Assembly (NCBI RefSeq): GCF_001039005.1
Contig: NZ_LDWR01000011.1
Coordinates: forward strand, 372,001 to 436,000
Direction of reading: 5' to 3'
DNA: 64,000 nt
DNA from: Burkholderia cepacia
GTDB taxonomy: Bacteria; Pseudomonadota; Gammaproteobacteria; Burkholderiales; Burkholderiaceae
The position numbers and the translations under genes are program-made. Position 1 is the stretch's first letter. Each line of letters starts with the position of its first letter. A model generated the notes under the pieces. That model was given only the letters and a program-made list of their open reading frames with translations. It was not told the DNA's origin and ran no database searches. Below are positions 12,430 to 18,811 of this stretch, one piece after another.

Positions 12430-12635
12430 CGGGTCGCCTCGTCGCCGCGCTCGGCGCCGGGTAGCAACCGCCCGCGCAGCGCGACCGGCACCAGTTCGCA
12501 CGGCACCGCGTCGCGCCGGTCGATCCCGCGCGGCGCATGAAAGCCGCGGCCGATGCCGAGGTGCTGCGCGACGATCCAGACGGGCACCGCGATCACGATG
12601 CCGACGATGAAACCGATGACGAGTTCGGCGATCAT
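12426..12635 (-). CDS. bcsF: BcsF-like membrane anchor
   Basis: This is a 69-residue protein with a single N-terminal transmembrane segment (residues 4-24: LVIGFIVGIVIAVPVWIVAQ) and a short basic cytoplasmic tail. Position, length and topology match BcsF, which anchors the c-di-GMP sensor BcsE to the synthase and activates BcsG. It overlaps bcsE and bcsQ by 4 bp each. The call relies on context because sequence identity across this family is low. Confidence 0.75.
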   Translation of the reverse strand: MIAELVIGFIVGIVIAVPVWIVAQHLGIGRGFHAPRGIDRRDAVPCELVPVALRGRLLPGAERGDEATR

Positions 12636-14608
12636 GCGCCCTCCGGATTGCGCAGCGGCATCGCGCTGCGGATGGCACCGCGCGCACGCGCGGCGGGATT
12701 GACGGGATGCGGGGCCGGTGCGTCGGCGGCCAGGTGCGCGAGCGCCGGCATCGCACCGATCGCCTCGAGCGACACGATGGCATCGATTGCATCGACCGCA
12801 TCGCTCACCTCGCTCGCGTCAGGCAACGCCGCGCCGGAATCGGCGCGCGCAGCCGAGGTGCGCGCCGCACCGGCCGGCTGCTTGACCGCGAACAGGTCGC
12901 TGTAGTCGGCGATCGGCGCGCGCCGGTTCTCGGCCTTCAGCGCATCGAGCTCCGTGTCGATGCTGCCCTGCCCGAGGCATACGACGCGGTCGGACAGCGA
13001 GTCGACCGGTGCGTCGAAGATTCGCGCAAGCGCGTCGTCGGCATCGACCGGCTCGCACGCGAACAGGAACACGTACAGGTGCCCGGCATCGGCCGTCACG
13101 ACGTCGCCCGCGCGACGCGGCCGGCAATGCCGCAGCGCGTCGACGTGCGACACGCCCGGCAGCAGCGTGATTTTCGCGAGCGTGTGCGGCAGCGCGAGCA
13201 CGGCGCCGCGATCGAGCACCGCGCGAATCCGCAGGCAGAACGCGCCGACCGGCAGATAACCGAGCACCGAATCGCCGAGCGCGGCCGCGAGCGCCGCGCG
13301 ATAGTCGGCCGCGACGGGCCGCGCATAGAGCTGGCCGCGCAGCGCGTGCACGGCGGCCTGCATCCGCGATACCGGCAGGTCGCGCGCGACGACGCGGTTC
13401 GCGCCGACGCTCAGCACGAGCATCTCGAACTGCTGGCGCAGCACCTCGCCGCGCTCGACGACCGCGATCTTCAGCGCGCCGCCGCACTGCCGGCGCAGCG
13501 CGTGCACGTCGGCGCACAACGCTTCGAGCTGCGCATGCGAGCGGAACACGAGCACCGCGGTCGCGGCCTGGGCTTGCGCGCAGGCCGCGACGACGGCTGC
13601 GTTGTCGTCGACGATTTCCCAGTCGCCGGGCACGCGAGTCGCGCCGTCGAGCACCGCGCGGCTGACGACGACGCGATCCTCGTCGCTCGCCAGCTTCATC
13701 CGGTGCGCCGGCTCGGTCGCGCCGCCATCGACGCTCGCGGACAGCCGGCCGCCCGGTGCAAAGCGCAGCGGTCGCACTTCGCCGGCCGCGAGCGTGTCGC
13801 CCGCGCGCCAGAAATCGACGATCCACAGCAGTTCGCCGTGCGTGCGCTGCATCTGCGCGACGCCCGAGCAGACGCCGTGGAAACCGCTGCGCGGCGTGCG
13901 ATCCGCATCGCGTACGAGCGGCGGATCATCGGTACGCACATCGGTGCCCGCACGGGCCGCTTCGGGATCGAGCAGCAGCACGAGCGCGATCCGGCGCGTG
14001 CGGCACCAGTCGGCGAGTGCGTGCGCTTCGTCCGCGAGCGCGACCGGGTCGTCCCAGCTGAACCAGCGCTGCGCGCCTTCGACGAAATACAGCGAGCGCG
14101 CACGAAAACCGTAGCGCTTCATCGCGCGCAAGCCGCCCGTGAGTCGCGCGAACGGGCCCGGCGCCGCGCGGCGCGGCGCGTCGCCGGTCGCACCGGTCGC
14201 GCCGGCACCTGCTCCCTCGGCCGGCTCGGCCGCCGCCGGCATCGCCAGCACGTTCAGGTTGCGCGGCCAGCCGGCCGGGTGTGCTCCTCCCGCGAAACCG
14301 CGCGCCTGCAGATGTTCGGCGACACGCTCCGGATCGCGTGCGAGCACGACCGTCACGTCGCGTGTGCGCGCCTGTCGCACGCTCTCCCACACGAGCGCGT
14401 CGCAGGCCGGCGTGCCGCCGGCCGCGTAGATCGCGTACAGGCCACCCGCTTCCAGTTGCGTCCAGGTGTCGGGCAATCCGTCGATCGCGAGCCGGCTCAG
14501 CGTGCCGATGCGGCCGCCGGCCGGCCCCGTGCGCAGCAGCGCGCGCAGGCGGCCCAGCAGGCCGGCGGCGCCGAGCGCGGGACGGGTGGCATCGATTTCC
14601 GTATTCAC
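12632..14608 (-). CDS. bcsE: BcsE, c-di-GMP-binding cellulose regulator
   Basis: This 658-residue soluble protein senses c-di-GMP and stimulates cellulose synthesis. The N-terminal 300 residues resemble a degenerate RecA-like NTPase domain. The C-terminal GIL domain contains LRHCRPRRAGDVVTAD, whose RAGD matches the RxGD c-di-GMP motif. The last 90 residues are low-complexity and Ala/Pro-rich. Translation starts at GTG 14608, six bases after an AGGGGA ribosome site that overlaps the left end of the palindromic element described below. It is unclear whether its mRNA is made mainly from the bcsB promoter through that element. Confidence 0.88.
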   Translation of the reverse strand: MNTEIDATRPALGAAGLLGRLRALLRTGPAGGRIGTLSRLAIDGLPDTWTQLEAGGLYAIYAAGGTPACDALVWESVRQARTRDVTVVLARDPERVAEHLQARGFAGGAHPAGWPRNLNVLAMPAAAEPAEGAGAGATGATGDAPRRAAPGPFARLTGGLRAMKRYGFRARSLYFVEGAQRWFSWDDPVALADEAHALADWCRTRRIALVLLLDPEAARAGTDVRTDDPPLVRDADRTPRSGFHGVCSGVAQMQRTHGELLWIVDFWRAGDTLAAGEVRPLRFAPGGRLSASVDGGATEPAHRMKLASDEDRVVVSRAVLDGATRVPGDWEIVDDNAAVVAACAQAQAATAVLVFRSHAQLEALCADVHALRRQCGGALKIAVVERGEVLRQQFEMLVLSVGANRVVARDLPVSRMQAAVHALRGQLYARPVAADYRAALAAALGDSVLGYLPVGAFCLRIRAVLDRGAVLALPHTLAKITLLPGVSHVDALRHCRPRRAGDVVTADAGHLYVFLFACEPVDADDALARIFDAPVDSLSDRVVCLGQGSIDTELDALKAENRRAPIADYSDLFAVKQPAGAARTSAARADSGAALPDASEVSDAVDAIDAIVSLEAIGAMPALAHLAADAPAPHPVNPAARARGAIRSAMPLRNPEGA

Positions 14609-14649
14609 GACGGTCCCCTAGGGTCTGTTTCCATATGGAACACACATGC

Positions 14650-14747
14650 GTTGCCACGAGAACGGCCGCTCGCGAGGCGCGCGACGCCGCGAATACTGAC
14701 GTATTCGCAAGGAGCGCAACGCGGCGAGCGGCCGTTCTCGTGGCAAC
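14650..14747. repeat. Hairpin 1 of the element
   Basis: Perfect 24-nt arms (14650-14673 and 14724-14747) begin GTTGCCACGAGAACGG. The loop region contains a second stem, GCGAATAC (14689-14696) paired with GTATTCGC (14701-14708) around a TGAC loop. An A/T-rich linker follows at 14748-14768. Confidence 0.85.
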
Positions 14748-14773
14748 CCCAAATTAAAAAATTCATGTCACGG

Positions 14774-14874
14774 GAATGCCCGAAATCGCCCGTATGGCGG
14801 CGTCGTTCGTCGCTTGTTTGGCGCGGCCAAACGGCGCTTCTCACTTCTTGCCCTACGAGCGATTTCGGGCATTC
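14774..14874. repeat. Hairpin 2 of the element
   Basis: Perfect 16-nt arms GAATGCCCGAAATCGC (14774-14789) and its complement (14859-14874) enclose a smaller stem. That inner stem is GTTTGGC (14816-14822) paired with GCCAAAC (14826-14832) around a GCG loop. Confidence 0.85.
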
Positions 14875-14902
14875 GCATGTGTGTTCCATATGGAAACAGA
14901 CC

Positions 14903-17900
14903 CTAGTAATCCGAATAAAGCCGCACCGGCGTCGGCGTAACGAGCCAGCTCCGCTGCGCGCGCGCATCGAACGCATAACGCAGGTACACGAGCGCCGAAC
15001 TCGGCGCGTAGTCGTGCGACCGGTCGACATGCAGTTGCGCGCCGACGCTCAGATGCGGATTCACGCGGTATTCGACGATGCCGTTCACGCCATACGAGAA
15101 CGACACGCCGCGCGTCGAGCTGCCCGCGTACACGAACCCGGCCGCCACCTGCGCGGCCCGCTGGTCCGAGAACGTCGGGTAATACAGCGAATCCTTCTCG
15201 TAGCTGTTCGAGACCCCGCCCGTGAAAGTCAGGTCCCACGACAGCGCGTCGTGCCGCCCCGCCCATTCGATCGGCACGCCGAGCGACAGGTAGCGCTGCG
15301 GGCTGTAGTAACCGCCCTGCCCGTACGTGTAATAGCGCAGGTTCTGCGCGTAGTGCCACGCGTTGCCGACGAGCCCGGTGCTGACCTTCATCGTCGCGCG
15401 CTCGTACACGGGCACCGTGAAGCCGGTGCGCAGCGTGACTTCCGCGTTGCGCTCGACGTTGCGGCCGGACAGCACGCCCGCGCCGAGTTCCGCGAACAGG
15501 TTCGTGCGGCCCACATCGACCGACGCGCGCAGGTTCACGCCGTCGCGGCGCACGCCGCCCCACACCGCGCCGGTCCACGGGTCGCGCATCCCCGCGTACG
15601 ACAGCACGCTGCTCGTTTCCGGCCGCCGCGACGCATTCACGCTGAAGCTCGCCGGACCCGCATCGAAGCGATAACGCACGCCGCCGACGAGGTAATGCAC
15701 GGGGAAACCGAGCGGCGACGTGCCGAGATCGAAACGCCATGCATCGGTGCGATAACCGGCGCCGAGCGCAACGCCCGTCGCCGTCTGGTGCAGCGAGCCC
15801 GGCGGATTCGCGATCAACGCGGCGGCCGACTGATTCGACTGAAATGGCGGCGGCAGCCCGCTCTGGGCCTTGAGCGCCGCGTAGGTCCCGAACGTCGTGA
15901 GCGAATAGGCGTTCGGATCGCTGGTATCGAGCGTGCCCGGGTCCAGGTGCACGGTGTCGATCTGCGCGAACACATGCCCGTCGTAGCGGATCGGCAGCTG
16001 CATGTAGATCGGCACCTGCTGCGCGCGATACGACGAAATACCTTCGTCGCCCGACTTGTACGCGGGCGTCCAGCCGGTCTCGATCTCGGGGTTGCGCCGC
16101 TGCTCGAGATCCGCGAACGCGGCCTGCGCGGGCGTCAGGCCGTCGCGGCCCGGGCTCACGCCGGCCGTGCGTTCCTGCGACAGCGACAAGCGATACAACG
16201 ACGCCGCGTCGTCATAACGACCCTGTGCTTCGGCCACGCGCCCGGCCGCGACCGTCACGTCCGCGCGCGCCGGATACGCGGCGTGCAGCCGGTCGGTCAC
16301 CTGCGCGGCTTCGTCCGGACGGCGCAGCGCGTTCAGGCGGCGCACGGCCGACAGCTGCGTATCGACGTCGTCGTCCGGCGTGCGCGCGAGCACGGCCTGC
16401 ACACGCGCGAGCGCGGCCGCGCGGTTGCCGCTGTCCTCGTCGATGCGCGCGAGCGCGAGCTGCGTGTCGGTATCGTCAGGCGTGCGCGCGACGACCGGTG
16501 CAAGCGCGTCGCGCGCCGCGCCGAAATGCCCCTGCGCGCGTTCCAGATCGGCCAGCTCGAGCGCGTAGCGCTTGTCCGCGCGGCCGGCCGGGCTCGCGCG
16601 ATCGAGCTGTGTGCGTGCCTGCACGTAGTCCTGCCGCGCGATCGCGTCGTCCGTCTGCCGCAGCACGAGCCGCAGCGATTGATCCTCGAGCCTCGCCGTC
16701 TGTGCGGGCGTCAGCGACGGTTCGCGGCGCAGCGCGTCGAGCCACGCGGCGAGCGCGTCGTCGCGCCCCGCGCTGCCGAGCAGGTCGCCGTAGCGCAGCC
16801 GCACGTCCGCGTCGGCTTCGCTCGGATGCGCGACGATCCAGTCATGCAACGGCGCGAGGCCGCGATCGGGCTCACCCGCGTCGATCCACTGCGCGCCGAC
16901 CGCGGCGAGCATGTCGGGATCGTCCGGCGCGCTCGCCTGTGCATGCGCGAGCGACGCGGCAAATGCCACGCGGTCGCCGCGCCCGAGCGCGCCGCGCGCG
17001 TCGGCCAGCGTGCCTTCGGCATCGAGCTTGCGCGCCAGCGCGCGCATCCCGTCCGAACGGTGTGCGTCGTCGACAGGTGCGAGCGCGGCCTGCGCGCCCG
17101 CGACGTCGTTGACCGAATTGCGATACAGCGCGGTCGCATAGCGCATCTCGGGTGTATCGCTTTGCGCGAGCCCGTCGTCCATCACCGTGCGGCCGAGCTG
17201 CGGCAGCCCCATGTCGCGATAGAGACGCGCGAGCGCGAAACGTGTCCACGGCGCGTCGGGCGCCGCACGCACGGCGGCCTCGTAGCGTTGCGCGGCCGGC
17301 CCGCGTTCGCCCTTGTCCGCGAGTGCGCGCGCCTGATCCGCGAGCAGGTCGGCGCGCAGACCGTCGAGCGCGCGACGATCGTCGCGGCCCGTCACCCGTC
17401 CTTGCAATGCGTCGAGCAGCGGGCCGATCCGGTCCGCGCGGCCGGTGTTCTCATACAGCATGGCCGCGCCGCGCACGGCCGGCAGGCTCGGCGAACGCGC
17501 GGCCAGCAACTCGCGCAGCAACGGCTCCGCGCGCGCCCAGTCGCGCTGCGCAAGCAGCGCATCGGCGAGCTGCAGCTTCGCGTCCGGGCTGTTCGGCTGC
17601 ATCGCGAGCGCGGCACGCGCCGCGCGCTCGGCGTCTTTCGACCGTCCCGCGGCGGCCGCCGCGCGGCCTTGCGCGAGCAGTCCCCAGAACTGCGCGGTGC
17701 GCGCCAGGCTCTGCCATTTGTCGCGCTGGTCGGTCGCGAGCGTCGCGGCCCGCACGAACAACGCGCGCGCTTCGTCGTGCCGGCCTTCGCGCAGACGCAA
17801 CAGGCCAAGGCCGCCAACCGCGTCAGCATCGTCGGCCCGCGCGCGCGCGGCACGGGCGAGCAGCGGATCGGCGCCCGCCAGGTCGCCGCGCGCGAGCGCC

Positions 17901-18811
17901 TGCAGGCCGCGCTGCTGCGCGATGTAGCCGGGATCGCGTTCGAGCCGGCGCTGCGCATCGCGCCGGCTGTCCAGTTCGGCAACCCGGCCGCGGAATTCGG
18001 TATCGTCCGGCACGAGCGCGAGATACGCCTGCAGCGCATCGAGATACGCGGGATCGCTGCCGGCCGCCTGCAGCACGCGCCGCCACAGCGACATCGCCTC
18101 CGTATGGTCGGCGTCGTCCCGCTTCGCGAGCGACCATGCGATCCGGTTCGCCTCCGCGCGCGTGGCGGCATGCTGGTTCAGCAGCCGCGCGAGCGCCATG
18201 GCCGCGCTGGTGTCCTGCGGATCGGCCGCGATCCTGCGGCGCAGCGCGGCGAGCGCCGAGTCGTGTGTACCCGGCGCATTCGCGAGGATCTCGTAATACT
18301 CGGCGCCGAGCGCGCCGGACGGCGCGTCGTTCGGAAACAGCGCGACGACCCGCCGGGCCGCCTCGTCGGTGCGGCCGCTGCGCGCGAGCAGGCGGATCTG
18401 CGCCATCTCGCCGCGCCCGCTCGTCGCGACGCGGTATTCGTCGGCCACCCGCCGCGTGGCAGGCCCGTCGGGCGACTGCGCCTGCAGGCGCGCGAGCGCG
18501 GCCTGCGCGCCTTTCGCGTCGCCGAGCCGCAGCAGCACGCGCACCTGCTCGGCCAGCAGTTCGGTGTCGCCCGGCGCGATCAGCAGCCCCTTGCGCAGCG
18601 CATCGCGCGCGAGGTCGTCGCGGTGCTTGACGCCCCACATCCGCGCGGTGTCGAGTTGGCGCTGCGCGTCGGCGGAAACGGACGTCGCTCGCGCGGCGGT
18701 TTTCGGCGCCGTCGTATCGGATGCGGCGCCCGGCGCCGCCGCGCACACCGACGACGCGAGCCACGCGAACCCCGCGACATGCGGCGCGGCACGCTTCAGC
18801 GGGCGGCGCAC
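14903..18811 (-). CDS. bcsC: BcsC, TPR-rich outer-membrane cellulose export channel
   Basis: This protein of about 1302 residues carries nascent cellulose across the periplasm and outer membrane. A GTG start at 18811 is chosen: it is preceded by GGGGAGG and gives a signal peptide ending SSVCAAAPGAA. About 900 residues of tetratricopeptide-like repeats follow (recurring AxxxLARL, GxxxxAxxALxxAL patterns). The final roughly 340 residues form a porin-like beta-barrel, from ETGWTPAYKSGDEGISSYR to the terminal VRLYSDY. The start overlaps bcsZ by 16 bp. The TAG stop falls inside the CTAG at the edge of the palindromic element. It is somewhat longer than E. coli BcsC. Confidence 0.92.
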   Translation of the reverse strand: MRRPLKRAAPHVAGFAWLASSVCAAAPGAASDTTAPKTAARATSVSADAQRQLDTARMWGVKHRDDLARDALRKGLLIAPGDTELLAEQVRVLLRLGDAKGAQAALARLQAQSPDGPATRRVADEYRVATSGRGEMAQIRLLARSGRTDEAARRVVALFPNDAPSGALGAEYYEILANAPGTHDSALAALRRRIAADPQDTSAAMALARLLNQHAATRAEANRIAWSLAKRDDADHTEAMSLWRRVLQAAGSDPAYLDALQAYLALVPDDTEFRGRVAELDSRRDAQRRLERDPGYIAQQRGLQALARGDLAGADPLLARAARARADDADAVGGLGLLRLREGRHDEARALFVRAATLATDQRDKWQSLARTAQFWGLLAQGRAAAAAGRSKDAERAARAALAMQPNSPDAKLQLADALLAQRDWARAEPLLRELLAARSPSLPAVRGAAMLYENTGRADRIGPLLDALQGRVTGRDDRRALDGLRADLLADQARALADKGERGPAAQRYEAAVRAAPDAPWTRFALARLYRDMGLPQLGRTVMDDGLAQSDTPEMRYATALYRNSVNDVAGAQAALAPVDDAHRSDGMRALARKLDAEGTLADARGALGRGDRVAFAASLAHAQASAPDDPDMLAAVGAQWIDAGEPDRGLAPLHDWIVAHPSEADADVRLRYGDLLGSAGRDDALAAWLDALRREPSLTPAQTARLEDQSLRLVLRQTDDAIARQDYVQARTQLDRASPAGRADKRYALELADLERAQGHFGAARDALAPVVARTPDDTDTQLALARIDEDSGNRAAALARVQAVLARTPDDDVDTQLSAVRRLNALRRPDEAAQVTDRLHAAYPARADVTVAAGRVAEAQGRYDDAASLYRLSLSQERTAGVSPGRDGLTPAQAAFADLEQRRNPEIETGWTPAYKSGDEGISSYRAQQVPIYMQLPIRYDGHVFAQIDTVHLDPGTLDTSDPNAYSLTTFGTYAALKAQSGLPPPFQSNQSAAALIANPPGSLHQTATGVALGAGYRTDAWRFDLGTSPLGFPVHYLVGGVRYRFDAGPASFSVNASRRPETSSVLSYAGMRDPWTGAVWGGVRRDGVNLRASVDVGRTNLFAELGAGVLSGRNVERNAEVTLRTGFTVPVYERATMKVSTGLVGNAWHYAQNLRYYTYGQGGYYSPQRYLSLGVPIEWAGRHDALSWDLTFTGGVSNSYEKDSLYYPTFSDQRAAQVAAGFVYAGSSTRGVSFSYGVNGIVEYRVNPHLSVGAQLHVDRSHDYAPSSALVYLRYAFDARAQRSWLVTPTPVRLYSDY

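Follow-up and report, generated by a model that had tools for sequence, protein, structure and literature searches.

A widespread miniature mobile element family with covarying stems, viewed from its copy between bcsC and bcsE of Burkholderia cepacia

The element at the bcsC-bcsE junction

In the stretch of Burkholderia cepacia DNA analysed here (64,000 nucleotides; the window), the genes bcsC and bcsE of the bcs operon are held apart by a strongly palindromic sequence. The locus raises the questions of what this sequence is, how it came to lie at the junction, and what keeps its arms matched. The features of the region, numbered by position in the window, are as follows.

12632..14608, minus strand: bcsE, with a GTG start (Pfam CBP_BcsE, E 2.1e-133)
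14619..14620, no strand: left copy of the duplicated target TA (tetramer CTAG); a single CTAG stands at empty sites, and TA lies on both sides in 93 of 156 rows of copies
14621..14903, no strand: element proper, 283 bp, subfamily A
14621..14650, plus strand: left terminal inverted repeat, forming the 5' side of stem P1; the outer bases recur at the ends of an IS5-family IS
14650..14673, plus strand: hairpin A, 5' arm, 24 nt
14689..14708, plus strand: apical small hairpin of hairpin A, 8-bp stem, kept in both subfamilies
14724..14747, plus strand: hairpin A, 3' arm
14774..14789, plus strand: hairpin B, 5' arm, 16 nt
14816..14832, plus strand: apical small hairpin of hairpin B, 7-bp stem; in L340, L344 and L345 another paired hairpin is swapped in as a unit
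14859..14874, plus strand: hairpin B, 3' arm
14874..14903, plus strand: right terminal inverted repeat, 3' side of stem P1
14904..14905, no strand: right TA of the target duplication; together with 14903 it makes up the minus-strand TAG stop of bcsC
14903..18769, minus strand: 3' part of bcsC up to its TAG stop (Pfam BCSC_C, E 9.1e-105)

A preliminary description of this DNA had read here a perfect 33-bp terminal inverted repeat with CTAG at both ends and two nested perfect hairpins, and both are borne out. The repeats occupy 14618-14650 and 14874-14906, the 33 bp including the CTA of the target, and the arms of hairpins A and B pair perfectly over 24 and 16 nt. Given only the base composition, 64 kb would be expected to hold about 2e-11 perfect 33-bp repeats spanning no more than 300 bp. 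Folded as RNA in the operon sense, the element reaches -199.8 kcal/mol (z -18.4), whereas shuffles average -103.15 and 0 of 200 do as well; folded as DNA, its z is -18.1. The copies are predicted to be able to fold into a three-way junction made of the repeat stem P1 and hairpins A and B. Since the duplicated target is TA within YTAR (CTAG here), the element proper is 14621-14903; the earlier count of 281 bp plus one CTAG was right about a clean insertion at CTAG, but 283 bp plus TA is the better unit. With this length and without a transposase gene, the element has the size of a MITE. It appears to have no protein-coding content, as had been proposed, although the stretch is not free of reading frames, chance ORFs running across it as expected at 69% GC.

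The TAG stop of bcsC overlaps the target CTAG, and both this stop and the start region of bcsE survive the insertion. Between the bcsC stop and the bcsE GTG lie 294 nt, or 9 nt once the element and one TA are taken away; a glycosyl hydrolase 8 (Pfam, E 4.2e-78) is also encoded among the neighbours. The element thus restores the bcsC stop, leaves the beginning of bcsE intact and places a very stable RNA structure between them. Transcripts carrying other MITEs are described in PMC10969869 as being cut by RNase III or shifted in stability, and an effect on bcsE and later genes is therefore plausible here. By this analogy the bcs mRNA may undergo RNase III-type processing or a change in stability, to which we would give somewhat less than an even chance.

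Comparison of the same junction in other genomes bears on the age of the insertion. Among 30 junctions, that of the source genome included, 5 hold the element between two CTAG, and 18 have a single CTAG (in one of them CTAA), the stop of bcsC and the start region of bcsE being the same. Another 6 carry scar-like extra bases, among which L134 shows a clear piece of the repeat, and 1 differs in another way. Two further genomes, G046 and G020, also carry the element at this site, which brings the carriers to 7 of the 32 genomes read and leaves 25 in which it is absent or represented only by scar-like bases. The carriers are scattered on the tree of the flanks, a tree weakly supported in places; all seven copies share one outer orientation, and the copies have diverged from one another. 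Thus, the target-site duplication stands opposite empty sites in relatives, as is expected of a MITE, and clean insertion at CTAG, with many copies elsewhere, is upheld. The preliminary description had also called the insertion recent. That part finds no support in view of the seven scattered genomes with shared site and outer orientation, the six scar-like junctions and the divergence of the shared copies. An old insertion with repeated loss and repeated insertion at a rare CTAG both fit these data; a single very recent insertion does not.

The same comparison deals with the notion of a fixed regulatory RNA of the bcs operon. Although seven genomes share site and outer orientation, the element is absent or scar-like in 25 of 32 and has many copies at other genes, so that in its stated form this explanation is refuted and retains next to no probability. 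Presence in all relatives together with a lack of copies elsewhere had been named as speaking against a mobile insert, and the element shows neither.

The repeat family and its likely mobiliser

The source genome matches the element at 19 separate places. Seventeen are complete copies with both repeats and both hairpin stems, 9 of subfamily A, to which the window copy belongs, and 8 of subfamily B, which has other repeat and stem sequences. Hairpin A is shortened in L009 and L017, L019 is a one-hairpin form, and L018 is a remnant. A search of the source genome and of other Burkholderia for the repeat had been suggested at the outset; within the genus, 61 of 65 genomes match the A query and 59 of 65 the B query. 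As in other MITEs, many copies lie at unrelated sites, and terminal inverted repeats are present, the outer repeat having at most one mismatch over its 30 positions in 145 of the 156 rows. These rows stand for 153 distinct places, three being counted twice (L010/L077, L012/L307, L102/L346), and the copies are a non-random sample taken from the best-listed matches.

Beyond the genus, an exact loop pattern occurs in 91 stretches of the named genome collection; the 80 listed belong to Burkholderia and Paraburkholderia except for one in Trinickia, and Caballeronia joins them through plasmid and megaplasmid records. With a covariance model of hairpin B, matches came from 89 of 299 genomes and from 10 of the 25 genera of the host family, a number of genera to be read as an upper bound because the three loci of genus g19 are of a kind whose repeat begins TAGTG. 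Of 33 loci examined from several genera, 22 have the family-type outer repeat (18 with exact AGGGYCTGTT, 4 slightly changed) around an inner part that is different yet still paired. The other 11 comprise 4 with a repeat beginning TAGTG, 3 with another repeat and 4 with none in the examined stretch; six of the 33 loci are short, namely L379 with the family-type repeat, L390 with another repeat, and the four with none. Loci L392, L394, L403 and L405 in other genera represent a separate inverted-repeat element, about 164 bp long, whose ends begin TAGTG. We conclude that the element is a member of a widespread miniature mobile family in Burkholderia and its relatives. Phages gave no match to it, and Rfam 15 gave no family at gathering score, with five sub-threshold matches only.

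We had taken 36 partial BLAST matches for truncated copies, which proved mostly wrong. Twenty are an outer repeat around one hairpin, hairpin A in 10 and hairpin B in 10. Seven hold both hairpins, among them L502, in which no outer repeat of at least 15 nt was detected, and nine show no outer repeat at a search length that inverted repeats below 15 nt would escape. A 54-bp copy in G049 (C11:11975-12028, in L167) consists of the two repeats alone. The outer repeat is thus the constant part of the element and the hairpins are removable modules. A pattern for a longer element (the 22-nt A end with C or G nine bases on, leaving out A or T at that place and the B ends) found none in the 65 genomes except the 54-bp copy of G049. 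Copies of about 310-340 nt occur at the bcs site in L115, L122 and L127 and also at L007, with extra bases in hairpin B, for example like CCCCAAGGGGAC.

Where TA lies on both sides, it is within YTAR in 77 of the 93 rows (CTAG 39, TTAA 26, CTAA 9, TTAG 3), and YTAR sites are rare, with 20 in the window outside the element. Two of these 20 are at stop codons. Among 76 copies whose gene context was read with a crude ORF caller, a gene ends exactly at the element edge in 22 (one place counted twice; bcsC is the one such case compared with empty sites), and a preference for stop codons as insertion sites is suggested. The same 76 copies lie between tandem genes in 29 cases, convergent genes in 6 and divergent genes in 3, with 38 unclassified.

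Thirty loci with the IS5-type domain PF13340 were inspected, and two, L199 and L200, proved to be ISs of about 830 bp. Their ends read TAGGGTCTGTT[CT]ACATTC or close to it, the left end of L200 being TAGGTCCTGTTCACATTC. The right end of the 833-bp IS is GGGTCTGTTTACAT after TA, and the same 14 bases are found in most A copies; the window copy has 13 of these 14 end bases with one different, and B copies share fewer. IS and element are alike at their ends only, with no shared interior. The transposase matches NCBIfam NF033580 (E 4e-54, 183.9 bits against a cut-off of 110) and PF13340 (E 1.5e-28), which places the IS in the IS5 family. Matches to the IS, often short, occur in 24 of 65 genus genomes, and named plasmids carry it, several with the annotation "IS5 family transposase". 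Because it has the 14 end bases and the TA-type target in common with most A copies, the 833-bp IS is the likely mobiliser, and we infer that it probably moves the element in trans. The source genome holds only two pieces of the IS, of 454 and 57 bp, so the mobiliser may have been lost or may be a different enzyme. An IS5/IS427-type transposase had been presumed in the preliminary description; an IS5-family IS with matching ends has now been found as the probable mobiliser. Apart from this, the IS5-type IS has apparent internal-deletion derivatives of about 270 bp, near the element in length (G049:C11:1204955-1205224; NZ_LT984809 348847-349117), and PF13340 matches occur in all 65 genus genomes with at least 3 each, some of which may be old domesticated genes.

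Two other transposition systems were considered as sources of the element. IS630-family (Tc1/mariner-like) transposons also use TA targets, and a MITE derived from one would share the TA duplication; moreover, a DDE_3 gene adjoins a copy in G062. However, at none of 29 DDE_3 loci is the gene flanked by two element-type ends, and the four with recognisable IS630-type ends read AGTGTTC[CT]GTC, with no GGGYCTGTT ends seen, leaving an IS630 origin very improbable. The IS in G062 (L143; G062:C9:171472-172328) is of IS630 type and sits directly beside the element copy, apparently at its terminal CTAG.

REPINs are short palindromic mobile sequences, and a REPIN-like element moved by a RAYT (Y1 HUH) transposase would agree with the palindromic ends bearing TAG tags and with the Y1-like gene in 15 of 16 genus genomes examined. 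Yet REPINs are not known to duplicate their target, while the element has duplicated TA relative to its empty sites. HUH enzymes carry an H-U-H motif, and the Y1-like protein of the source genome reads PRQVQLL at this position. Element-type ends were found at 0 of 18 Y1 loci checked (30 fetched), and we regard such an origin as even less credible than the IS630 one. The Y1-like gene of the source genome (237 aa; C165; L185:1120-1833) is conserved, and its neighbours resemble glutamate synthase and OmpW by eye.

How the stems change between copies

Copies of this family change in both arms at once. In an alignment of 149 rows, 7 rows outside 280-290 nt being omitted, Watson-Crick cells make up 98.2% of P1, 99.1% of hairpin A and 98.7% of hairpin B. 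At least two Watson-Crick types occur at 22 of 30 pairs in P1, 9 of 19 in A and 9 of 15 in B, and all three stems covary; among 32 chosen copies, double changes fall at 41 of 96 predicted pairs. Copies at shared sites give a view of rates. For 63 pairs of copies (those with zero or more than 25% flank divergence, or of different subfamily, being omitted), we counted 75 double changes (18.5 expected from the flank rate) and 71 single ones (467 expected), figures that serve as a guide because the pairs are not independent and the flanks are partly coding. All 75 double changes lead from one Watson-Crick pair to another.

Such a pattern might be expected if the stems were kept mainly by selection for a working RNA or single-stranded DNA structure, single mutations being removed or compensated; such a structure might serve in mRNA processing, be recognised as a folded strand by the transposition machinery, or make the element a mobile structured RNA. 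Several observations agree with this. Single mismatches fall 6.6-fold short of the number predicted from the flank rate, total change per pair stays under what neutrality would give, and at shared sites stems change less overall than loops. Between subfamilies, the loops (79 and 88% alike) resemble each other more than the repeats do (63 and 67%) or the stem of hairpin B (38 and 44%), the stem of hairpin A (70 and 74%) being near its loop (79%). The apical stem of hairpin B has been swapped as a unit and is still paired, and P1 has an excess of G-U over A-C mismatches (56 against 10 over all copies, 39 of them at one pair) where A and B together have 20 against 21.

Against selection stand the unpaired parts and the kind of change. 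The unpaired linker is only 48% alike between subfamilies, and unpaired columns at shared sites differ by 8.2%, which is about the flank level. Among 30 distinct double events, 17 are transversions, which no G-U intermediate can explain, and 13 are transitions; P1 alone has 5 transversions to 10 transitions, so that transitions lead there, as against 12 to 3 in the hairpins. Unpaired columns have 106 transversions and 144 transitions, and paired changes thus include transversions about as commonly as elsewhere. The L340 cluster contributes 7 of the 30 double events, and 13 transversions and 10 transitions are left without it; its interior diverges so much that re-insertion or conversion is likely there. 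At the pairs with double events, the unpaired states (n=37) are 16 G-U, 13 A-C and 8 other. In addition, copies with one hairpin or none retain the outer repeats, 25 of the 32 genomes read at the bcs site do without the element, and no Rfam family reaches threshold. Taken as the main cause, selection for structure is in our judgement unlikely.

Inversions between the arms are a further feature of these copies. Both interior orientations occur at 5 of 24 shared sites, with re-insertion possible in individual cases; these sites derive from 28 clusters, from which three duplicates and the spurious L290/L323 were removed, and L276 is misplaced in another. In L127, the bcs-site copy of G055, the outer orientation agrees with that of the window copy, and only the loop of hairpin A lies inverted within its arms. 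Among the 156 best-matching rows none showed an inverted loop (one is unclear); this set is biased against inversion because it was chosen by similarity.

Paired change that includes transversions, together with inversion between arms, is what template switching predicts. During replication, switching between the arms would copy one arm onto the other and would sometimes flip the sequence between them. Arm homogenisation and spacer inversion by template switching are described in PMC8604942, and PMC8794818 argues that template switching maintains hairpins. In the yeast data of the former transitions are commoner, and it cites bacterial data in which transversions are. Template switching fits better than RNA selection alone and is the best-supported cause of the matched arms, a mechanism we infer from these patterns; some selection on pairing may act alongside it, the G-U excess of P1 leaving room for selection at the RNA level. 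As a joint reading, we consider it probable that the element is a MITE inserted at the TA of the CTAG overlapping the bcsC stop, that its mobiliser is of IS5 type, and that its arms are matched by template switching. An IS5-family-type transposase would then act in trans by recognising the outer bases, which are the best-kept part of the repeat across genera.

A bolder reading makes the three-way junction the working form of the element rather than a by-product: a folded single strand with the shape of a viral hairpin terminus would use its own arms as template and would spread or be repaired via the fold. It would explain at once the matched arms, the interiors and loops in both orientations and the removable hairpins, and if it were true, the IS5-type transposase would be required for the outer cuts only. 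We think this rather improbable, more so than selection for structure, and keep to a MITE with arms matched by template switching.

Relation to known systems

The family shares traits with several described ones. Correia elements, the MITEs of Neisseria, are likewise short, with terminal inverted repeats and many copies, and PMC10969869 reports that they can invert and that transcripts are cut by RNase III at the terminal repeats. In contrast, the ends of the present family match those of an IS5-family IS, its two nested hairpins covary, and some of its variants have a single hairpin, a distinction drawn from descriptions and not from sequence. ERIC and RU elements also duplicate TA. As outlined in PMC10969869, ERIC and the enterobacterial RU are palindromic, intergenic and without transposase, like the element, and can occupy gene 3' ends and affect mRNA. 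Here, however, the ends are different, the fold is a three-way junction, the hosts are Burkholderiaceae and there is a likely partner IS, again by description rather than by sequence. Chunjie of Geobacter is likewise a MITE, of 235 bp, but has another host, and the part of its description consulted does not mention covarying stems. REPIN/RAYT systems differ from the element in its target duplication, and no active RAYT was found beside it. Finally, the arm homogenisation and spacer inversion of quasipalindrome correction or template switching (PMC8604942, PMC8794818) resemble what is seen here. These papers deal with short repeats in yeast genes and RNA genes; in the present case all three nested stems of a mobile family seem to be involved at the same time.

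We therefore regard this as a structurally unusual MITE family of which no earlier description was found in the literature searched. The top listings of that search held no description of the family, four end motifs gave none, and the main text of a 2024 MITE review is without the word Burkholderia; a name for the family or for the IS may exist elsewhere.

Covariation in stems is usually taken as proof of a functional RNA. In this family, with its many natural copies, a DNA copying mechanism is the probable origin of much of it, and loops and flanks provide built-in controls. The family is thus a test bed for separating RNA selection from DNA copying as causes of covariation and a caution for RNA-family discovery in these genomes, and a likely partner IS can now be named for a large repeat family of the Burkholderiaceae.
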